A DNA stretch of 64,000 nt from Candidatus Poribacteria bacterium. Its GTDB lineage: Bacteria > Poribacteria > WGA-4E > PCPOR2b. The stretch spans positions 1 to 64,000 of the forward strand of contig PYIZ01000039.1 in assembly GCA_003635265.1 (NCBI GenBank), written 5' to 3'. The notes beneath the pieces are model-generated. The model saw nothing but the letters and a program-made list of their open reading frames with translations, did no database searches and was not told the DNA's origin. Within the stretch, counting starts at the first letter, position 1, and every line of letters starts with the position of its first letter. Below are positions 29,800-38,917 of the stretch, in pieces. Made by a program: the position numbers and the translations under genes.

Positions 29800-30068
29800 G
29801 ATTAAACGTTGGAAAATTCAAATGTAATGAAGTTATTAACACAGCGATTATATTAACGCAAGTTGCCATTGACTGCCGCTGCGGGTTATCCAAAGCACCA
29901 CCTGAACAGATCTTTTTAAGTTTGCTTATTGTCCGATGTAGATATCGGGACAGGCTTGCAGGAATGTTACTATTTTTGACCATTGAGTATCGGATAAGGT
30001 TAGTGTTGGCATATCTCCGGGTTGTGCCACAAATGTCAACACGTCCTAAATAAACTTAGGAGATGTTT

Positions 30069-31703
30069 ATGACTGCCAAACATTCACAACTGTGCTACGT
30101 GGGTCTAATTTTTGGGCTAGGTCTGTTTTTTAGCATTGGGCTACCCCACACAACCCGTGCCGAGGAAACTACTGTCTTTCGGAAAGAAGCGGGCCCCGAC
30201 GCTTTTGGGAAAGCTGTTGACATCAGCGGAGACACCCTCATCGTTGGTGCACCGAGCAAACACGACGGTGAAGTCTATATCTTCACACACCAAGGAGATC
30301 AATGGATTCAGCAGCAGCGCATCAAGGCACCACGTCCGACCTTCGGAGGTTGGTTCGGCGGGGCAGTCTGTATTGATGGGGATACCGCTGTCGTAGGGGG
30401 ATTAACCTCCTTTCACGGCACCGGTGGATTTGCACCCCGTTCCGGTGTGGTCTATATTTATCAACGCGAGGAACAGAATTTTCGGCTGAAACAAAAGTTG
30501 ATGCCTAACGATAAGGATGACGGAGAGCGATTCGGATTCACGGTCGATCTGAGTGGGGATACTCTCGTTGTTGGATCTCCCTTTCATGGTAACGGTAGCG
30601 GGCCAGAGATTGGGGCGGTATATGCCTATGTGCGGGGTGAGGAAGGGTTTCAACTTCAACGGACATTCTTTGGTGAGTTGGGGAGCAGCAGATTTGGTTG
30701 GTCCGTCGCTATTGATAAGGACACTATTGTTATTGGTTTGCCGTTTCAGCGGGCATTTGGGGGTAAAGGCATGGCTGTTGTCTATGTCCGCAAGGGGCGA
30801 TTCTGGACGCGACAGGCGATGCTGTGGGCTGAGCGCGAATCTGAGTGGAGTATCTTCGGTTGGTCTGTTGACATCAGCGGGGACCGTGTCATCATTGGTG
30901 CACCATTTTGGCGGGAACGGGCTGGTGCCGCATATATCTTCACACGCCAAGGGGACGAATGGACGCAGCAAATAAAATTGACCGCCAGCAACATGGAAGT
31001 AGGTGCTAGGTTCGGATTTACAGTTGATATCGACGGCACTCAAGCGATGGTAGGGGCACCGTTTGAAGATAGTATCGACGAAGATGCAGGAGCGGCTTAT
31101 TTTTTTATGCGGGAGGATGATACATGGGCTGAAAAGGTAAGGCTCATGCCAAAAAGGGTGGTTCAGGATGAACCGCATAACATTTGGGAAGGAGATGTAT
31201 ACGGCAATTCGGTCGCCATTGCCGAGGCGGGTTCCTTCGCTGTTGTCGGGGCACCGGGAGATAATCTGCGTCTTGCGCCTCCTAATCCATCAGGTGCGGC
31301 GTATGTTTATCATACTAAAAAACAGCTGTTGGGAGCCCACTCGGTAGGACCCATTTCCCTAAGCGCAACGACATTGGGAGATGTGAAGCGAACGGCACTC
31401 TTCCAAAACTTCCCTAACCCGTTCAATCCTGAGACGTGGATTCCCTATCAGCTTGCGATGGAGGCGGAGGTGAGCATCAGTATCTACGATGTTCAGGGGC
31501 ATCGTGTTCGCCGAATTGAATTAGGTGAACGGTCTACGGGGTCGTATTTTACAAAGGAAACCGCGGCATATTGGGATGGACGAAATGATGATGGGGAATT
31601 GACCCCGAGTGGAATGTATTTCTATCAACTCCAAGTGTCTCCATCCCGATCTATCGGGGCGGGGGATTATACTGCGGTACGGCGACTAGTAATTCTCAAG
31701 TAG
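30069..31703 (+). CDS. Secreted FG-GAP beta-propeller protein with C-terminal sorting-type domain
   Basis: 544 residues. Signal peptide (about 1-28, GLFFSIGLPHTTRAEE). Seven FG-GAP-like blades of about 50 residues follow, each of the form FGxxVDISGDTLVVGAPxxxxxxGAVYIY (about 35-410), consistent with an integrin-alpha-like propeller. The C-terminal domain starts LFQNFPNPFNPETWIPYQL and ends VRRLVILK, matching 884-2984 and 31858-33534. Near the end, VSPSRSIG is an eight-residue insertion encoded by a palindromic repeat. AGGAG precedes the ATG at 30069 by six bases. Probably anchored at the cell surface. Confidence 0.9.
   Translation: MTAKHSQLCYVGLIFGLGLFFSIGLPHTTRAEETTVFRKEAGPDAFGKAVDISGDTLIVGAPSKHDGEVYIFTHQGDQWIQQQRIKAPRPTFGGWFGGAVCIDGDTAVVGGLTSFHGTGGFAPRSGVVYIYQREEQNFRLKQKLMPNDKDDGERFGFTVDLSGDTLVVGSPFHGNGSGPEIGAVYAYVRGEEGFQLQRTFFGELGSSRFGWSVAIDKDTIVIGLPFQRAFGGKGMAVVYVRKGRFWTRQAMLWAERESEWSIFGWSVDISGDRVIIGAPFWRERAGAAYIFTRQGDEWTQQIKLTASNMEVGARFGFTVDIDGTQAMVGAPFEDSIDEDAGAAYFFMREDDTWAEKVRLMPKRVVQDEPHNIWEGDVYGNSVAIAEAGSFAVVGAPGDNLRLAPPNPSGAAYVYHTKKQLLGAHSVGPISLSATTLGDVKRTALFQNFPNPFNPETWIPYQLAMEAEVSISIYDVQGHRVRRIELGERSTGSYFTKETAAYWDGRNDDGELTPSGMYFYQLQVSPSRSIGAGDYTAVRRLVILK
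31644..31659 (+). repeat. TCCCGAT-CT-ATCGGGG palindrome inside a coding sequence
   Basis: A near-perfect palindrome (CCCGATCTATCGGG core at 31645-31658). Comparison with the homologous domains at 2984 and 33534 shows 24 extra bases here, giving an in-frame VSPSRSIG insertion just before AGDY. Related copies: 34628-34664, 59641-59697 and a half copy near 29944. Confidence 0.75.
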
Positions 31704-31857
31704 GCACACAAATTGACCAGAGAAACTAAATTTTTCTAAAAAATCGGTTTCTGAAGTTAAAGCTGGTCTATCCTAATTCAGTTTTGATTACAAATAATGG
31801 GATAATTTTCTCATTCGTCCATTGAAGAGGGTTTTCAGTCTGAAAGGAGTGTTATTA

Positions 31858-33534
31858 ATGAAAGTCTTACAAATCTTTCTCGCTTGCTTTATTTTCTTAA
31901 TTGGACAGGTTGCATTGAGTTATGCCGTTGACCCTAAAGGGGAGGTTATTCCTGTACCCGTCAATGAAGGCATCCATTGGGGTGGTTCCGTTGACATCAG
32001 CGAAACAACTCTCATTGCTGGCTATGGATCGAAATTCGGTAACTTCGGTAACGATGACGGTGTCTATATTATGGAACAGAAAGGAGAAGAATGGGAAGTA
32101 TTGAATCACTTCCCGTCGCCTAATCAAGGTCGAATAAATTACTTTGGTCTTGCTGTTGCTCTTGAGGAGAACCTCGCTGTGATTGGTGCCCCCGAACAGG
32201 GTGGGAACCTACTCAAGGGTGGGCTCGGTCTTTTAGGCGAAGGTCCAGGCAGGGTCTATGTCTACCGACGTGGAAGTGGCGGGAACTTTGCCCTGATGGA
32301 AGCTTTCAGTGCCAATGATGCCCGAGATCTGGACCGGTTCGGGTTTGCCGTTGATATCAGCGGGACAACTCTTGTTGTCAGTGCACCTCTTCACGATCAG
32401 GAGAAAGGTGCTGTTTATGTCTACACGCTAGAAGGAGACGAATGGAAACAACAAGCCCAGCTTCAAGCGGACGACGGGGGTCGAAAGAATCGGTTTGGCT
32501 GGGATTGCGCGATTAGTGCTGACACAGTTGTTGTCGGTGCGCCACTCGCCGCCGCACCCGACAGACACTCTGGTGCCGCTTATGTCTTTAAGCGCAAGGG
32601 AAATGTCTGGAAGCAGACAGCAAAGTTGGCACCTCATGACGGGGATGGTGGCGATCATTTAGGTCTTTCTGTTGATGTCAGCGAGGGTCACGCTATCGTT
32701 GGGGCACATAGAGATGAGAATCACGGGAATCGGCGTGTTTCCGGTTCAGCGTATATCTTTAGCGAAGCCGGAGACACCTACACCCAAGAAGCGAAGTTGA
32801 CCGCGGACAAACCGCAGGAAGGTGCTAGCTTCGGGTGGACCGTTGCGATTGATGTCAACCGTGCCCTCGTTAGTGCCCCTTTTGCTGACACCAAAATCGG
32901 TGACGATTCTGGTGCCGTTTACGCCTTTTTGAAGGTCGGACCTAACTGGGTGCTACAAGCGATCGTCATGCCTGAAAGGGGACAGGGTAAAGAAGGCGGT
33001 GACCTTATGGGTTACGCGGTTGCCCTTGATGGAAAATTCGGACGAGATTTCAACTACGCTGCTATCGGTGTGCCGTGGGAGGCCACCCCGGAACATCTGG
33101 ATGAAGGCTCAGTATATCTCTTTGATACTGAAGATATCAACAATCTCAACATACCTTTAAGCAAAAACATCGAAGATTTCAAAATACCGTTGTCTGTCGA
33201 GCCGACTGATGATTTGGCACTCATCATGTTAGGGGACATTAAGCGGACCGCCCTGCTTCAAAACTTCCCCAATCCGTTTAATCCAGAGACGTGGATACCT
33301 TACACCCTCGCCAATGATGCGAAAGTAAAGGTTCGTATCTACGATGTTCAAGGAGTGCCGGTCCGCCAATTAGACATCGGACGGCAGCGAGCGGGGCGAT
33401 ATCTCAACAGACAAACCGCTGCATATTGGGATGGCAGAGACCAATCGGGTGCGTCGGTTGCCAGCGGGGTCTATTACTATACATTAGAGGCAGGGGCTTT
33501 TTCAGAAACTCGGCGCATGGTTATCCAGAAATAG
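31858..33534 (+). CDS. Secreted FG-GAP beta-propeller protein, paralogue
   Basis: 558 residues from the ATG at 31858 (AAGGAG upstream), with a signal peptide ending near VALSYA. Seven FG-GAP-type blades (about 45-430), for example FGFAVDISGTTLVVSAPLHD and FGWDCAISADTVVVGAPLAA. The C-terminal domain starts LLQNFPNPFNPETWIPYTL, contains VRQLDIGRQRAGRYL and ends TRRMVIQK. Tandem paralogue of 30069-31703; the two genes were probably duplicated together. No palindromic insertion here, which shows the other copy's state is derived. Confidence 0.9.
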   Translation: MKVLQIFLACFIFLIGQVALSYAVDPKGEVIPVPVNEGIHWGGSVDISETTLIAGYGSKFGNFGNDDGVYIMEQKGEEWEVLNHFPSPNQGRINYFGLAVALEENLAVIGAPEQGGNLLKGGLGLLGEGPGRVYVYRRGSGGNFALMEAFSANDARDLDRFGFAVDISGTTLVVSAPLHDQEKGAVYVYTLEGDEWKQQAQLQADDGGRKNRFGWDCAISADTVVVGAPLAAAPDRHSGAAYVFKRKGNVWKQTAKLAPHDGDGGDHLGLSVDVSEGHAIVGAHRDENHGNRRVSGSAYIFSEAGDTYTQEAKLTADKPQEGASFGWTVAIDVNRALVSAPFADTKIGDDSGAVYAFLKVGPNWVLQAIVMPERGQGKEGGDLMGYAVALDGKFGRDFNYAAIGVPWEATPEHLDEGSVYLFDTEDINNLNIPLSKNIEDFKIPLSVEPTDDLALIMLGDIKRTALLQNFPNPFNPETWIPYTLANDAKVKVRIYDVQGVPVRQLDIGRQRAGRYLNRQTAAYWDGRDQSGASVASGVYYYTLEAGAFSETRRMVIQK

Positions 33535-33608: not shown

Positions 33609-34824
33609 TTAGCCAGATTTACATAGGTGCCAATCAAATCTGACACCTATGGGGGACGCCATCGCCCCAACTACGGGACTCAACATGAATCCCGATACTT
33701 TGTTCCAGAGGTTGATTGCACCCACGCCGTCTCGGTGATACTCAAAGCCACAATGGCTGCAGTGGTAGTTACGGTTTGTGTGTTTCTTTCGATTCCCACA
33801 CCGCGGGCAGGTCTGTGAGGTGTATGCCTCGGATACAAATGCCGATTTATCGAGCATCCTCGCTACGCGGGACTTGACCTTCAAACCCGCCAACTCCGCT
33901 TTGTAGCATATCATGGACTGGAGACGGGCAAACGCCCATTGGTGAACCTTCTGGTTAGATACTTTTCCAAACTTCGCTCGCTTACGGATGCCTTTGAGTT
34001 TGCCAATCACTATCGTATCTGCCTTCGCCTTGATGCAGTCAGATATAAATCGAGATGTGATTTTGTGTTCAGCGTCCTTCAGTTGAGCGTTCAACTTTGC
34101 CAGTATCTTGGTCTTAACTCGTTTGAGACGATACCAGCGATGACTTCGTTTGATACACCTATCCATTTTAGATTGGATATATGCTTTAAACTTGTTGATA
34201 TACTGTTTGATAGCCCGTAAAGCACGACCATTGTAGATTATGGTATGTTCGCCGTCATGTGAAACTATCGGGTGAATCTCACCCATATCTATGGCAACCA
34301 CTTTACCTGTCTCACGCTTGGGCGGTATTTGTACTTTGTAAACCAATGAAAAGTAGTAACTGCCCCGTTGGAAGTACATTTCAACATAGACGGGCTTTAC
34401 ATCTGATTTGAGGGTGATAGCCACATTCCCTTTACCATTTGATAGTCGGATAACACCATCTTTGAAAGTAATCCCATTTTGTATCCAACGCACCTTGTAG
34501 AAATGAGGAGTCCGCTTAGGAGGTTTCGCATCAGGATTGGACTTGACAGCACCAAAGTAACTCTTCAGTGAGTCAAAATAGGATTGGATTATCGCTTGCA
34601 CCGTCTGTGAATGCAGATTGTATCCACGTCCCGTATTCACGGGATCCCGATTCTATCGGGACAAGCATATACTTCTGGACAGCCCCTTGTGATAGCCAAA
34701 ACCCTTTCTTGCGCTTGACTTTCCAGAGTAAAGACACAACTTTGCAATAGACACGGCCAGACTCATGAGCAAGCATATCCAATTCAGGGGTCTTGTCGCA
34801 TTTGACTTTCTTGGTAGTATACAT
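33609..34824 (-). pseudogene. tnpB: tnpB, RNA-guided endonuclease split by a 37-base palindromic insertion
   Basis: TnpB nicks DNA using a guide RNA from the element's right end. The N-terminal part starts at 34824 (AAGGA upstream, MYTTKKVKCDKTPELD) and the body resumes from 34627. Between them 34628-34664 holds two adjacent palindromes; deleting these 37 bases rejoins AVQKYM to RGYNLHSQTVQ in one frame, which fits the +1 frame difference. RuvC-I Asp is in VVAIDMGE, and the zinc finger and last Asp in CPRCGNRKKH...HRDGVGAINL. The usual RuvC-II Glu site reads IVIGKLKG, with a Glu instead in FVSEAYTSQTCPRC, as in TnpB/Fanzor variants with a moved glutamate. As written the gene is inactive. Confidence 0.85.
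34628..34664 (-). repeat. Double palindrome inserted into tnpB
   Basis: Two palindromes back to back on the minus strand, TCCCGAT-AGA-ATCGGGA and TCCCGT-GAAT-ACGGGA, inside a 37-base insertion. 37 is not a multiple of 3, so tnpB is frameshifted. Shares the GTCCCGAT...ATCGGGAC core with copies at 31644 and 59659. Confidence 0.8.
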
Positions 34825-35226
34825 TGGGATTGTCCTTTCGGTCTTTCGTTTGCCTGTTCGATAGGGTGTGGGAAGCACCACCGTGCGGTGGTGTCGAACC
34901 TTCCCACCGAAAGACAAGACAAGTATACCATATTTCTCCTGCAATTTCAATGCTAAAGCAGTCTGTAGAGGCTGCGCCCCAACTGCTCCAAGCCTAAAGG
35001 ATTGGGATTTAGACCTAAAGGTTTTTTCGTTAATAATAACTCGAGTTGTCGCCTTTTCACAGGTTGGGGAACCCTGATTTCATTGAGGACAGACTCTACG
35101 CCACGAGGGTGTTGAAGCATTTTATTCTAACATGCCACAAAGTCAAGTAAGGATGATACTTTGTATCAACTGTGCAAGTTCTCACCGGTATTACACACTA
35201 TGCAGTAAGCATAAGGAGATAACACA
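34825..35226. other. Intergenic region between tnpB and the selenoprotein gene
   Basis: 402 bases. The tnpB frame remains open upstream to 34950, without family similarity. It contains the 34988-35006 hairpin related to IS605 ends and an AAGGAG at 35213-35218 that serves the next gene. Nothing else was identified. Confidence 0.6.
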
Positions 35227-36429
35227 ATGAAAACATTACAGATTGGGATTTTCATCCTTATTTTGATAAGTAGTCTGAGTGCTAATGAAGCCCCGATAAA
35301 TAATGACAGCAGAATCATGCTCAATCTTGATGCTGCATCAGAAGTGTTCGTCAATGCTTTTATTGACCCAATTGAGTTTACGCGATACGATTTTCACGTT
35401 GAATGGGACACATTGGCGAATCTACGAGCCGCCGAACCAGAAAAGCAGCACACCGCGTCGGTTTTCCGCGCTTTCCTGCCGAAAGGTCCTGTTTCCGTTG
35501 GTGAACTCTGGAAAATTGAGCCATAAGACGGTATCCTAGCGTTACTTAAACAACTCCACCCCAATCCACAGATGGATATGGTGATTGACTCAGGAGATTC
35601 CCGAGGTGCGTGGGCGTGTCTGCGCGCTTACAATGCACAATTCGCTGAAATCGCGTTTCGCATCCATGCACATTTTGTCCTTAAAGATGGTTTTTTCACT
35701 CCCTCACAATTTGCAGGTAAACTGATTATCGCGCGTAACGACGGGAAAATCGCTTTCTTCCAAATGCACGTTCCTGAAGGAACATTGAACTTTGATGTTG
35801 GTTGGGAACACGAAGATCACCAGTGGACCATCGGAGACAGCGGGTTTTGCCCAAGAATGGAACTCCTCGCAGGGACACAAAACAACCAGACGCAATTTGC
35901 TGTCAGTATTTCCCAAGAAGAGGTTGAGCGCAAATTAATCATACAGTTCTACAAGTCACAGCAAATCAACTGGATGGCAATGGACAAAGCGTTGGAGATG
36001 GCACAAATGCTGCAGAAGCCGATTCACGCGGTTGCGGTAGATGGCCCGCTTGATGACGAGTCCTGCTGAGGGAGCGGAAAAGGCTTGAGGGCAGTTGTCC
36101 TCTCCGACAAGCGAATTATTGAGTTCCTAAACGCAATCTTCATCAATACTTGGGTACTCAATACAGATATGAAACGACTCCGCGATGCGCACGGGATGGA
36201 CGCTATCTCCCCTTTGGCGCGGGCAATCATTCAAGGAAGGAAACAATACTCTCCCGTAGATTGTCTGGTTATCTCACCTGAACTTGAACTTTTGGGGCGG
36301 CAGCCGGTAAATGAACTTGCTTCAGGGAGACGCAGAGAAACCAAAATCAAGAGTTATCACGCATTTCTGGTTGAGGCATTAGCAGGAAAACACCCCGGAT
36401 TGAAGGAGGATAACCCGATGTCCCGGTAA
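35227..36429 (+). CDS. Probable selenoprotein with C-terminal C-U redox motif (one nonsense codon upstream)
   Basis: One reading frame of 401 codons, interrupted by TAA at 35524-35526 and TGA at 36067-36069. AAGGAG at 35213 supports the ATG; signal peptide MKTLQIGIFILILISSLSA. The text runs on sensibly across both stops: VGELWKIEP-DGILALLKQLHP, and DGPLDDESC-[TGA]-GSGKGLRAVVLSD. I recall similar marine/poribacterial proteins with SCUGSG at this point followed by LRxxxLSxxxIIxLLNxxF, i.e. a Cys-Sec pair in a thioredoxin-like C-terminal domain. The TGA is therefore best read as selenocysteine, while TAA looks like a single-base nonsense mutation or sequence error at a Gln/Glu/Lys codon. Central part is probably a beta-rich domain (FFQMHVPEGTLNFDVGW). 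Exported; role likely redox chemistry of envelope or metal/arsenic/mercury compounds, unproven. No sel genes in the window. Confidence 0.78.
36070..36112 (+). promoter_or_regulatory. Candidate bacterial SECIS hairpin
   Basis: Directly after the UGA, GCTT (36083-36086) can pair with AAGC (36109-36112) and GAGG (36087-36090) with CCTC (36099-36102), leaving loop GCAGTTGT, with a 3' bulge. The loop lies about 21 bases from the UGA, as bacterial SECIS elements require. The stem is short and was drawn by eye, so it is only a candidate. Confidence 0.45.
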
Positions 36430-37050: not shown

Positions 37051-38277
37051 TCATCGCTGTATCGGCACTTGTCTGCGTTGTCCCCAGCACCCGATTACGC
37101 CTGCGCCGAGAAGTAGCAGTAGTCCCATTGCCCAAAACATCGGTGAGAAGTTAAGCCAGTGAATCAGGAATCCCCCCAAGATAGGACCTGCAACCTTACC
37201 AGCATTTTTGAGTGTGCCGATGAGCCCCATCCCTGCACCGATGTGTAGTGCACTGATTTGCGTGGATACGAGTGCTACCGTGGATGGAAAGATAAGAGCT
37301 TGTGCAGCACCAATCAACACCGCCAACGCCATCAAGCCCAAAATACCGTGTGTCAACGTAATCAACGGGAGCGCAATTCCTGCGAGAACCATTCCCAAAC
37401 ATATTGCCCCAAAATATCCCAAGCGATCGCCAATCCTGCCTCCAACGGGCTTTAACACCATGTGCACTCCCTCCTGCACCGAAAAAAAAGCCCCTACCAA
37501 GGCGACGCTAATCCCTGTAGAAAGAGCATAGATAGGCAGAAATGCTTTGACAGCGTAGAGCGCAACAAACACAGTTGCTTCTAGCCCACCCGATAACCAG
37601 ACGGATGGCGTATGTGTGCCGGACTTTAGGGCATGGACAATCTGCTGACCAATTGGGGGACGGATAGCTTTGACGCGTGGCGCAGGCTCTGAGAGTAATA
37701 GAATCGGGACAAAAGCGAGGCAACTGAACAATCCGATGATGGTAAAAACAGTGACAGGACTCACTCCTGTTGCCAATAGCCAGCCCGCAGCCGCCGGTCC
37801 GACAATATAGCCCGCGCTACGAGCCATGCCGAACCAGCCCAACTTCTCCGCCAGTCGTTCTTTTACTCCTTCCGCCACGAAGGCGAGCGTTACAGGACCG
37901 TAAATGGCTGTGGCTAACCCGTGGATAATGCGTATGCCAAATAGTTCTGCCGGGGTATGAACAAAGCGATACAGAAAGGGCATACCGGCGAAAAAAATAG
38001 TTCCAGCAATCAGCCACCAGCGGCGTCCCCAGCGGTCAGAAAGTATCCCAATCCCTGGTTTGAGAACCATGCCAGTCAGGGTAGAAACGGAGACAATAAA
38101 CCCAAGGAACGCATCGGTCGCTCCCAGCGTCATTGCGAAGATTGGCAGGAGCGGTGTCTTTCCCATCTGATAGGCGGATCGCACAATGAAATCAGCACCC
38201 GTGATACTAATGAAATTGAGTGGGCGCTTCATTACCATATCTAAGGTAGGGATGTGAAAATTAAACTGGCGCATCAA
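37051..38277 (-). CDS. MFS transporter
   Basis: 408 residues, 12 predicted transmembrane helices. The MFS motif A between helices 2 and 3 is GILSDRWGRRWW, and a partial repeat lies between helices 8 and 9 (GGRIGDRLGYFG). Pattern matches DHA1-type multidrug or small-molecule exporters. The start is uncertain: no ribosome-binding site before 38277, and in-frame ATGs at 38238 and 38232 are possible. Ends about 40 bases before the CopD-like gene, so they may be co-transcribed. Substrate unknown. Confidence 0.9.
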   Translation of the reverse strand: MMRQFNFHIPTLDMVMKRPLNFISITGADFIVRSAYQMGKTPLLPIFAMTLGATDAFLGFIVSVSTLTGMVLKPGIGILSDRWGRRWWLIAGTIFFAGMPFLYRFVHTPAELFGIRIIHGLATAIYGPVTLAFVAEGVKERLAEKLGWFGMARSAGYIVGPAAAGWLLATGVSPVTVFTIIGLFSCLAFVPILLLSEPAPRVKAIRPPIGQQIVHALKSGTHTPSVWLSGGLEATVFVALYAVKAFLPIYALSTGISVALVGAFFSVQEGVHMVLKPVGGRIGDRLGYFGAICLGMVLAGIALPLITLTHGILGLMALAVLIGAAQALIFPSTVALVSTQISALHIGAGMGLIGTLKNAGKVAGPILGGFLIHWLNFSPMFWAMGLLLLLGAGVIGCWGQRRQVPIQR

Positions 38278-38300: not shown

Positions 38301-38618
38301 TTAATCAGTCAGATGAGAAATAGGAGGCTGATGCTGACAGGTCGGGATGGTTTTAAGTTTCTCCCCCAGAGCATCCTTTGCAACTTCAAGGTTATAATGG
38401 GCTTGCAGGTTGGACCACAGAGAATCAGAAACCCCAAAGTAGCGAGAAAGAAGTAATGCTGTCTCTGCCGATATACGCCGCTGTTCTTTGATAATCGCTG
38501 TAATCCGATTCGCCGGCACACCAATATCCTTTGCTAACCGATAGGGAGTAATTCCCATCGGTTTTAGAAATTCTTCTCTTAAGATTTCGCCCGGATGAGT
38601 TGGTTGAATAACAGACAT
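38301..38618 (-). CDS. higA: HigA-type antitoxin
   Basis: About 105 residues from the ATG at 38618 with AAGGAG seven bases upstream; MSVIQPTHPGEILREEFL is the standard start of the HigA/VapI helix-turn-helix antitoxins. The HTH is ITPYRLAKDIGVPANRITAIIKEQRRIS, followed by LSRYFGVSDSLWSNLQAHYNL. Binds and neutralises HigB and represses the operon. Ends RTIPTCQHQPPIS-like tail. In higBA the antitoxin follows the toxin, as here. Confidence 0.93.
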   Translation of the reverse strand: MSVIQPTHPGEILREEFLKPMGITPYRLAKDIGVPANRITAIIKEQRRISAETALLLSRYFGVSDSLWSNLQAHYNLEVAKDALGEKLKTIPTCQHQPPISHLTD

Positions 38619-38635
38619 TTTTCGCTCCTTGGGCA

Positions 38636-38917
38636 CTAGTGATAATCAACAATTTCTACGTTGTAGGCGTTACCATTCCTGAACTCAAAGCAAACACGCC
38701 ATTGACGATTAATACGGATACTATATTGGTCTTGCCTATCGCCTCTCAATTTCTCGAGCCGATTAGCAGGTGGTACACTTAGGTCCGCTAACTGATTTGC
38801 TGCATGCAGATAATTCAGTTTTCTTAGTGCCACGGAAGCTAAATTCCGCCATTCGGGCGCAACTCCGCTGCGATTAAAGAGGCGCTTCGTTTTTTCACAG
38901 TTGAAGGACTCAATCAT
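38636..38917 (-). CDS. higB: HigB-type toxin (RelE superfamily)
   Basis: 93 residues; MIESFNCEKTKRLFNR, a central ALRKLNYLHAANQLADL helix, NRLEKLRGDRQDQYSIRINRQWRVCFEFR, and ENAYNVEIVDYH-type end are the HigB mRNA interferase pattern, with the conserved Arg and His of the RNA-cutting site. The antitoxin start lies 17 bases after its stop. Cuts mRNA at the ribosome when antitoxin is degraded. Confidence 0.93.
   Translation of the reverse strand: MIESFNCEKTKRLFNRSGVAPEWRNLASVALRKLNYLHAANQLADLSVPPANRLEKLRGDRQDQYSIRINRQWRVCFEFRNGNAYNVEIVDYH

Follow-up and report, generated by a model that had tools for sequence, protein, structure and literature searches.

Does the in-frame UGA at 36067–36069, which directly follows a cysteine codon, end a gene or encode selenocysteine (Sec)? 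The question arises from a plus-strand locus of the window, a 64,000-nucleotide stretch of a Candidatus Poribacteria contig. On comparative sequence grounds we conclude with good confidence that this UGA is the Sec codon of a putative Sec-dependent family of thioredoxin-fold proteins, which belongs to one order of Poribacteria and has been amplified there into tandem arrays.

A gene copy interrupted by two in-frame stop codons

As assembled, the locus is divided between an ORF of 99 codons (35227–35526) and a second ORF (35572–36069), neither of which corresponds to the whole gene. The first-pass annotation had described a frame that runs on without a stop beyond a Cys-UGA pair; the pair is indeed in frame, and the reading that begins with ATG at 35227 stays open after the UGA until a TAA at 36427–36429, but an internal TAA at 35524–35526 had been overlooked, and TAA cannot encode Sec. 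The residues directly 3' of the UGA are GSGKGLRAVVLSD, in a Cys-TGA-Gly-Ser-Gly-Lys context, and the parts of the locus are as follows.

35227–36429, plus strand: family gene copy, 401 codons counting both internal stops, 83% identical to L011
35227–35283, plus strand: probable signal peptide MKTLQIGIFILILISSLSA, read from the sequence and like hydrophobic N-termini elsewhere in the family
35524–35526, plus strand: in-frame TAA that breaks the window copy (codon 100; CAA, Gln, in the same-genus relative L011)
35899–36426, plus strand: predicted Thioredoxin_7/DsbH-like domain with active site C-U-G-S-G, modelled on paralogue L010 from the same alignment
36064–36066, plus strand: Cys codon TGC directly 5' of the UGA (Cys in 156/156 copies)
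36067–36069, plus strand: UGA read as probable selenocysteine (TGA in 151/156 copies)
36087–36102, plus strand: bSECIS-like hairpin GAGGGC(AGUU)GUCCUC, six pairs, loop 36093–36096

The hydrophobic N-terminus resembles those of L011, L012, L013, L026 and other copies, and the earlier suggestion that the protein is exported fits this signal-like segment; elsewhere in the family, some copies appear to carry a signal peptide or a lipobox. In L011, from a genome of the same genus (G004; 83% identity over a 285-residue query), the TGA is retained and CAA stands in place of the TAA, so that the window copy has either been broken recently or carries a sequence error. Between the two copies dN is ~0.09 and dS ~0.39 overall (dN/dS ~0.22), and by segment the ratio comes to 0.19 upstream of the TAA, 0.17 from there to the TGA and 0.34 downstream of it. 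Purifying selection was thus still acting on the gene until recently, both before and after each stop. The window copy is without the C-terminal beta-sandwich domain typical of most relatives, as is L011. An intact paralogue, L010, is found on contig C53 of the window's own genome and encodes 523 aa with one TGA. Because the TAA interrupts the window copy, we restrict the selenoprotein claim to the family and to this intact paralogue; it does not extend securely to the window locus itself.

One in-frame TGA column across a Poribacterial family

We took 156 distinct copies of the gene from 86 loci (L009–L094), in which the codon at the Sec column is TGA in 151, GGA in two, GGC in two and TCA in one. 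A Cys codon at this position, whose occurrence in homologues is a usual but optional criterion for a bacterial selenoprotein, was found in 0 of the 156 copies, the alternatives being Gly (four) and Ser (one) only. All 156 copies have Cys directly before the Sec column, together with an invariant Gly three residues and an invariant Arg seven residues after it, and the invariant residues downstream of the UGA comprise G263, R267, L271, N281 and Y374. Homologue alignments run far past the UGA, nearly all with TGA at that column, as the first-pass annotation had anticipated for a Sec codon. That 151 of 156 copies sampled across the related genomes have TGA at exactly one column, with the frame preserved before and after it, is far beyond chance, and at the level of the family the UGA very probably encodes Sec, as was originally proposed.

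Of 59 related genomes searched, 51 contained homologues, and almost every homologue has just one in-frame TGA. A search of the phylum by alignment placed the family in 65 of 85 genomes, all of one order, with ~560 matches summed across the search (the best 18 or fewer candidates per genome being scored), some of which may be sigma-factor C-terminal domains and fragments. Genomes of these sponge-associated Candidatus Poribacteria hold up to ~18 copies each under the same scoring of at most 18 candidates. A scan of genome contigs returned 220 relatives, the best 80 of which were all titled Poribacteria; the genome-wide family search covered this one phylum, and no member was found in the plasmid collection (tblastn) or in viral contigs. 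A tree built from 149 copies places the five without Sec inside Sec clades, with at least four changes needed, and this nesting makes Sec look ancestral within the sampled family and lost now and then to Gly or Ser.

A SECIS-like hairpin downstream of the UGA

The small hairpin that had been proposed just 3' of the window UGA is present, with a loop that starts 23 nt after the codon, and the family's copies carry GAGGGC-AG(G/U)U-GUCCUC or a variant of it 18–33 nt after the UGA. This element fits the published bacterial SECIS model (PMC13188914), taken here as a loop of 3–9 nt, a stem of 4–16 bp, a G among the first two loop nucleotides and a distance of 16–37 nt from the UGA. The full set of six pairs forms in 120 of 149 copies, and in most of the remaining 29 a shift of the register by two allows all six; two-sided compensating changes are seen as well, for example from GAGGGC...GUCCUC to GAGAGC...GCUCUC. 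A G at the first or second loop position is kept in 144/144 full-length UGA copies, all of which can form a hairpin of the bacterial SECIS type with this G, and it is lost in two GGC copies (L019 and L084, loop AACU), which is what one would expect where Sec no longer has to be inserted.

The hairpin region is further marked by codon choice: synonymous constraint reaches 1.2–2.4 bits per codon at codons +1, +2 and +6 to +11, against 0.47 ± 0.22 elsewhere, and the codon of Arg +7 is AGG or AGA in 149/149 copies. In minimum-energy folds of the 42 nt after the UGA, 99 of 133 copies agree with the SECIS model, against 34% of synonymous shuffles; the other 34, the window copy included, fold without a model-compliant hairpin, and in most of these GGGAG immediately 3' of the UGA forms a competing stem with CUCUC. 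Rfam returned no SECIS match at five loci searched with a permissive threshold. A hairpin resembling a bacterial SECIS thus occurs in the place where the first-pass annotation looked for one, conserved by covariation and codon choice.

Selenocysteine machinery and ordinary TGA stops

The Sec machinery named in the same annotation is encoded in the window's genome. On contig C10, selA, selB and a tRNA-Sec gene (UCA) are found in a row, with selA (identified by reading the sequence upstream of selB) directly upstream of selB (372 bits, over the cut-off) and tRNA-Sec directly downstream. The genome's selD has one in-frame TGA of its own, and its hairpin has an AGUU loop, the same as that of the window hairpin. 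SelB and Sec-tRNA-Sec would bind the hairpin 18–33 nt 3' of the UGA and insert Sec, a step suggested by the machinery, the hairpin and the hairpin's conservation. TGA also serves as an ordinary stop: the window gene at 37051–38277 ends in TGA, as does one family gene of the L065 array, where the ATG of the next gene follows directly.

Tandem arrays and sigma-factor neighbours

The Sec genes of the family often form tandem rows, of up to eight. In the G024 array (L055), eight co-directional Sec genes are separated by gaps of −38 to 122 nt, and the L065 array holds seven, spaced 0 to 126 nt apart; counted from the downstream stop, the spacing is often 0–2 nt. Among known systems, the SAO operon, the largest named in a 2026 review, has six Sec genes and Tso has three (PMC13188914). 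These operons also hold several Sec genes in a row, but of different families, whereas in the Poribacterial arrays as many as eight genes in succession are paralogues from a single family.

ECF sigma factors that combine a hydrophobic segment with a C-terminal domain homologous to that of the family adjoin many of the arrays that encode proteins with a signal-like N-terminus; no ECF sigma neighbour was found at the examined arrays without signal peptides. L055, L057 and L058 have neither signal peptide nor sigma neighbour, and the same holds for many copies. In four genomes, an ECF sigma factor, a hydrophobic segment and the Sec domain are fused in a single protein of ~690 aa (86–100% identity).

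L056 12356–13678; L059 13286–14632; L074 9102–10421; and others: array-adjoining ECF sigma factors, ~440 aa
L198 (= L048, G015), L199 (G083), L200 (G032) and L201 (G029): sigma-Sec fusions with a single TGA in the family's Sec column and an intact hairpin

To our knowledge, no selenoprotein is so far known among sigma factors, and such a fusion would be the first. The family member L039 (784–2595, minus strand, G030) is fused instead to a C-terminal ResA/TlpA-like redoxin domain. As a separate observation, the same genomes are rich in sigma/hydrophobic-segment proteins with other C-terminal parts.

Predicted fold and active site

The usual protein consists of an N-terminal beta domain, a Trx_7/DsbH-like domain and, in most cases, a C-terminal beta sandwich. 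AlphaFold models of paralogue L010, built with 50 alignment rows, reached a pLDDT of 88 at full length and, for the isolated Sec domain, of 89.5. Foldseek matches of the full-length model were mostly to beta sandwiches (collagen-binding domain, CorA), and because these dominated, the thioredoxin domain was modelled by itself. The top PDB matches of the resulting model are a DsbH-domain protein, a Thermus thioredoxin, DsbH, AGR3 and AGR2, with a probability of 1.00 and a best E value of 2.5e-4 against DsbH-type proteins. The Sec domain is accordingly one with a predicted Trx_7/DsbH-type thioredoxin fold, which agrees with its earlier description as thioredoxin-like. Searches of the PDB by sequence gave no match for the family; PU.1, which appeared only as weak PDB matches by sequence profile, was discarded.

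When the family is aligned by hhalign with Poribacterial UGxC Trx_7 selenoproteins (92.7%, E 4e-7), U is matched to U and the second Cys to the invariant Gly, and the active site is therefore read as C-U-x-x-G. In this alignment Sec is at the putative attacking position, the first of CxxC, the usual resolving Cys is lost and a new Cys adjoins Sec. Neither a CxxC nor a UxxC active site was found in the family, the second position being Gly in 156/156 copies.

Relation to known selenoproteins

The Thioredoxin_7 (PF13899), DsbH and DsbD C-terminal-type thioredoxins, including Trx7/PDZ (NF041199) and the Poribacterial WUGxCKRLDA proteins, have the same predicted fold in the same register, with U on the first Cys/Sec and a shared W...KP...U..xK.L.......F pattern. 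Unlike them, the family has an invariant Gly for the second Cys, an invariant Cys before Sec and extra beta domains on both sides, and it has no Pfam or NCBIfam score. Related genomes hold other likely Trx_7 selenoproteins, namely WUGxCKRLDA proteins and a double-Sec FRUxPU protein (L166–L168, L170–L172, L174–L178, L184; L173, L195).

A vicinal Cys-Sec pair is also present in mammalian thioredoxin reductase, where it belongs to a C-terminal Gly-Cys-Sec-Gly and can form a selenenylsulfide. This is a resemblance only: the reductase carries the pair on the flexible C-terminal tail of a flavoenzyme, whereas that of the family lies at the start of the thioredoxin helix. Catalogued Cys-Sec selenoproteins (SaoC, SaoB, HgcA, MerB-like SaoL and KCU-star) share the C-U dyad but are other domains and families, none of them listed with C-U-x-x-G in a thioredoxin fold (PMC13188914 Table 1), and the 119 selenoprotein families and subfamilies of that 2026 review include no corresponding entry.

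The family domains have no match in Pfam, where the PF13899 cut-off is not reached, and no family of NCBIfam (June 2026) scores for them; thioredoxin-type matches in both were traced to one alignment member, and identical Pfam values are obtained with L039, in keeping with the redoxin domain fused in that protein. We found no paper joining "selenoprotein" and "Poribacteria" in a search of open-access papers. The family is very probably new, and "undescribed", the term of the first-pass annotation, is apt with regard to Pfam, NCBIfam and the 2026 catalogue.

Alternative readings

Were the UGA an ordinary stop, the locus would be a pseudogene or encode a truncated protein, and the homology downstream of the UGA would be a relic. 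The additional in-frame TAA of the window copy and the way ordinary gene finding splits it at both stops would suit such a reading, but it is already contradicted by the family, 151 of whose 156 sampled copies retain the UGA in a frame that is conserved before and after it; dN/dS below 1 after the UGA and the close succession of array genes behind the downstream stop make it very improbable. Genome-wide reassignment of TGA to a sense codon (Trp, Gly or Cys), to which the Gly at the Sec column of some copies could point, is extremely improbable given that TGA terminates ordinary genes, that tRNA-Sec, SelA, SelB and SelD are all present and that nearly all family genes have a single TGA, at one column. 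The Sec reading of the family is also compatible with the window locus being a dying copy, struck by a nonsense mutation and deprived of its C-terminal domain. Its TAA at codon 100, the missing domain, the higher dN/dS after the UGA and the lack of any copy in three of five same-genus genomes searched argue for decay; relative to L011, however, there is one nonsense change and no frameshift, L011 is likewise without the C-terminal domain, the SECIS and active site of the window copy are intact, and a single-base metagenome assembly error would give an identical picture. Decay is about as likely as not, and the chance that the window copy is still a working gene is about even.

With regard to function, a thiol or peroxide redox enzyme with a Cys-Sec pair is the most likely, at roughly an even chance, a reading that draws on the fold and on an active site from which the resolving Cys of CxxC is missing. 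Sec would react with an oxidised or electrophilic substrate (peroxide, disulfide or sulfoxide), resolution could come from the adjoining Cys through a Cys-Sec selenenylsulfide, the presumed working state, or from an external thiol, and a partner thioredoxin would then re-reduce the protein. The main rival, tentative and for part of the family, is sigma-factor sensing, in which the proteins would signal to the envelope, or protect it, through a membrane-tethered ECF sigma factor as sensors of redox state or electrophiles, or else as a sink for metals or reactive species. The ECF sigma proteins with a family-homologous C-terminal domain beside many arrays, the conserved fusions in four genomes and the absent resolving Cys all lend themselves to it; against it stand the many copies with neither signal peptide nor sigma neighbour, the redoxin fusion of L039, which points to electron transfer, and the recurrence of the sigma/membrane module with other C-terminal parts. 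We consider it possible, if somewhat unlikely, that part of the Poribacteria use Sec in transmembrane signalling, via membrane-tethered ECF sigma factors that carry exported C-U-x-x-G selenoproteins or adjoin arrays of them. If so, a Cys-Sec pair on the outer side of the membrane would, on oxidation, set gene expression within the cell. The conserved sigma-factor fusions allow the idea of a Sec-based redox sensor to be tested directly.

Significance for the Poribacterial selenoproteome

A selenoprotein is as a rule encoded by a single gene and has relatives that contain Cys. In the present case, one lineage holds hundreds of copies of one putative Sec protein, with Sec kept through many duplications and no Cys form in 156 copies, which suggests a strong and specific need for selenium in these bacteria. 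Since ordinary annotation cuts the family's genes at the UGA, their selenoproteome is probably much underestimated. A study of sponge symbionts reported SelA and SelB as enriched, with both present in the majority of the symbiont bins and not among their relatives (PMC5649159), and the family is a candidate reason for this enrichment in Poribacteria.

Other features of the window

Apart from the Sec locus, the window appears to encode a TnpB/IS605 OrfB-like transposon protein on the minus strand (33609–34950), in two overlapping frames with an apparent frameshift near 34600, and, also on the minus strand (38301–38917), two small overlapping genes that resemble a HigB/HigA toxin-antitoxin pair. 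Two adjoining FG-GAP-like repeat proteins on the plus strand (30063–33534) have a common C-terminal FQNFPNPFNPETWIPY sorting-type motif.
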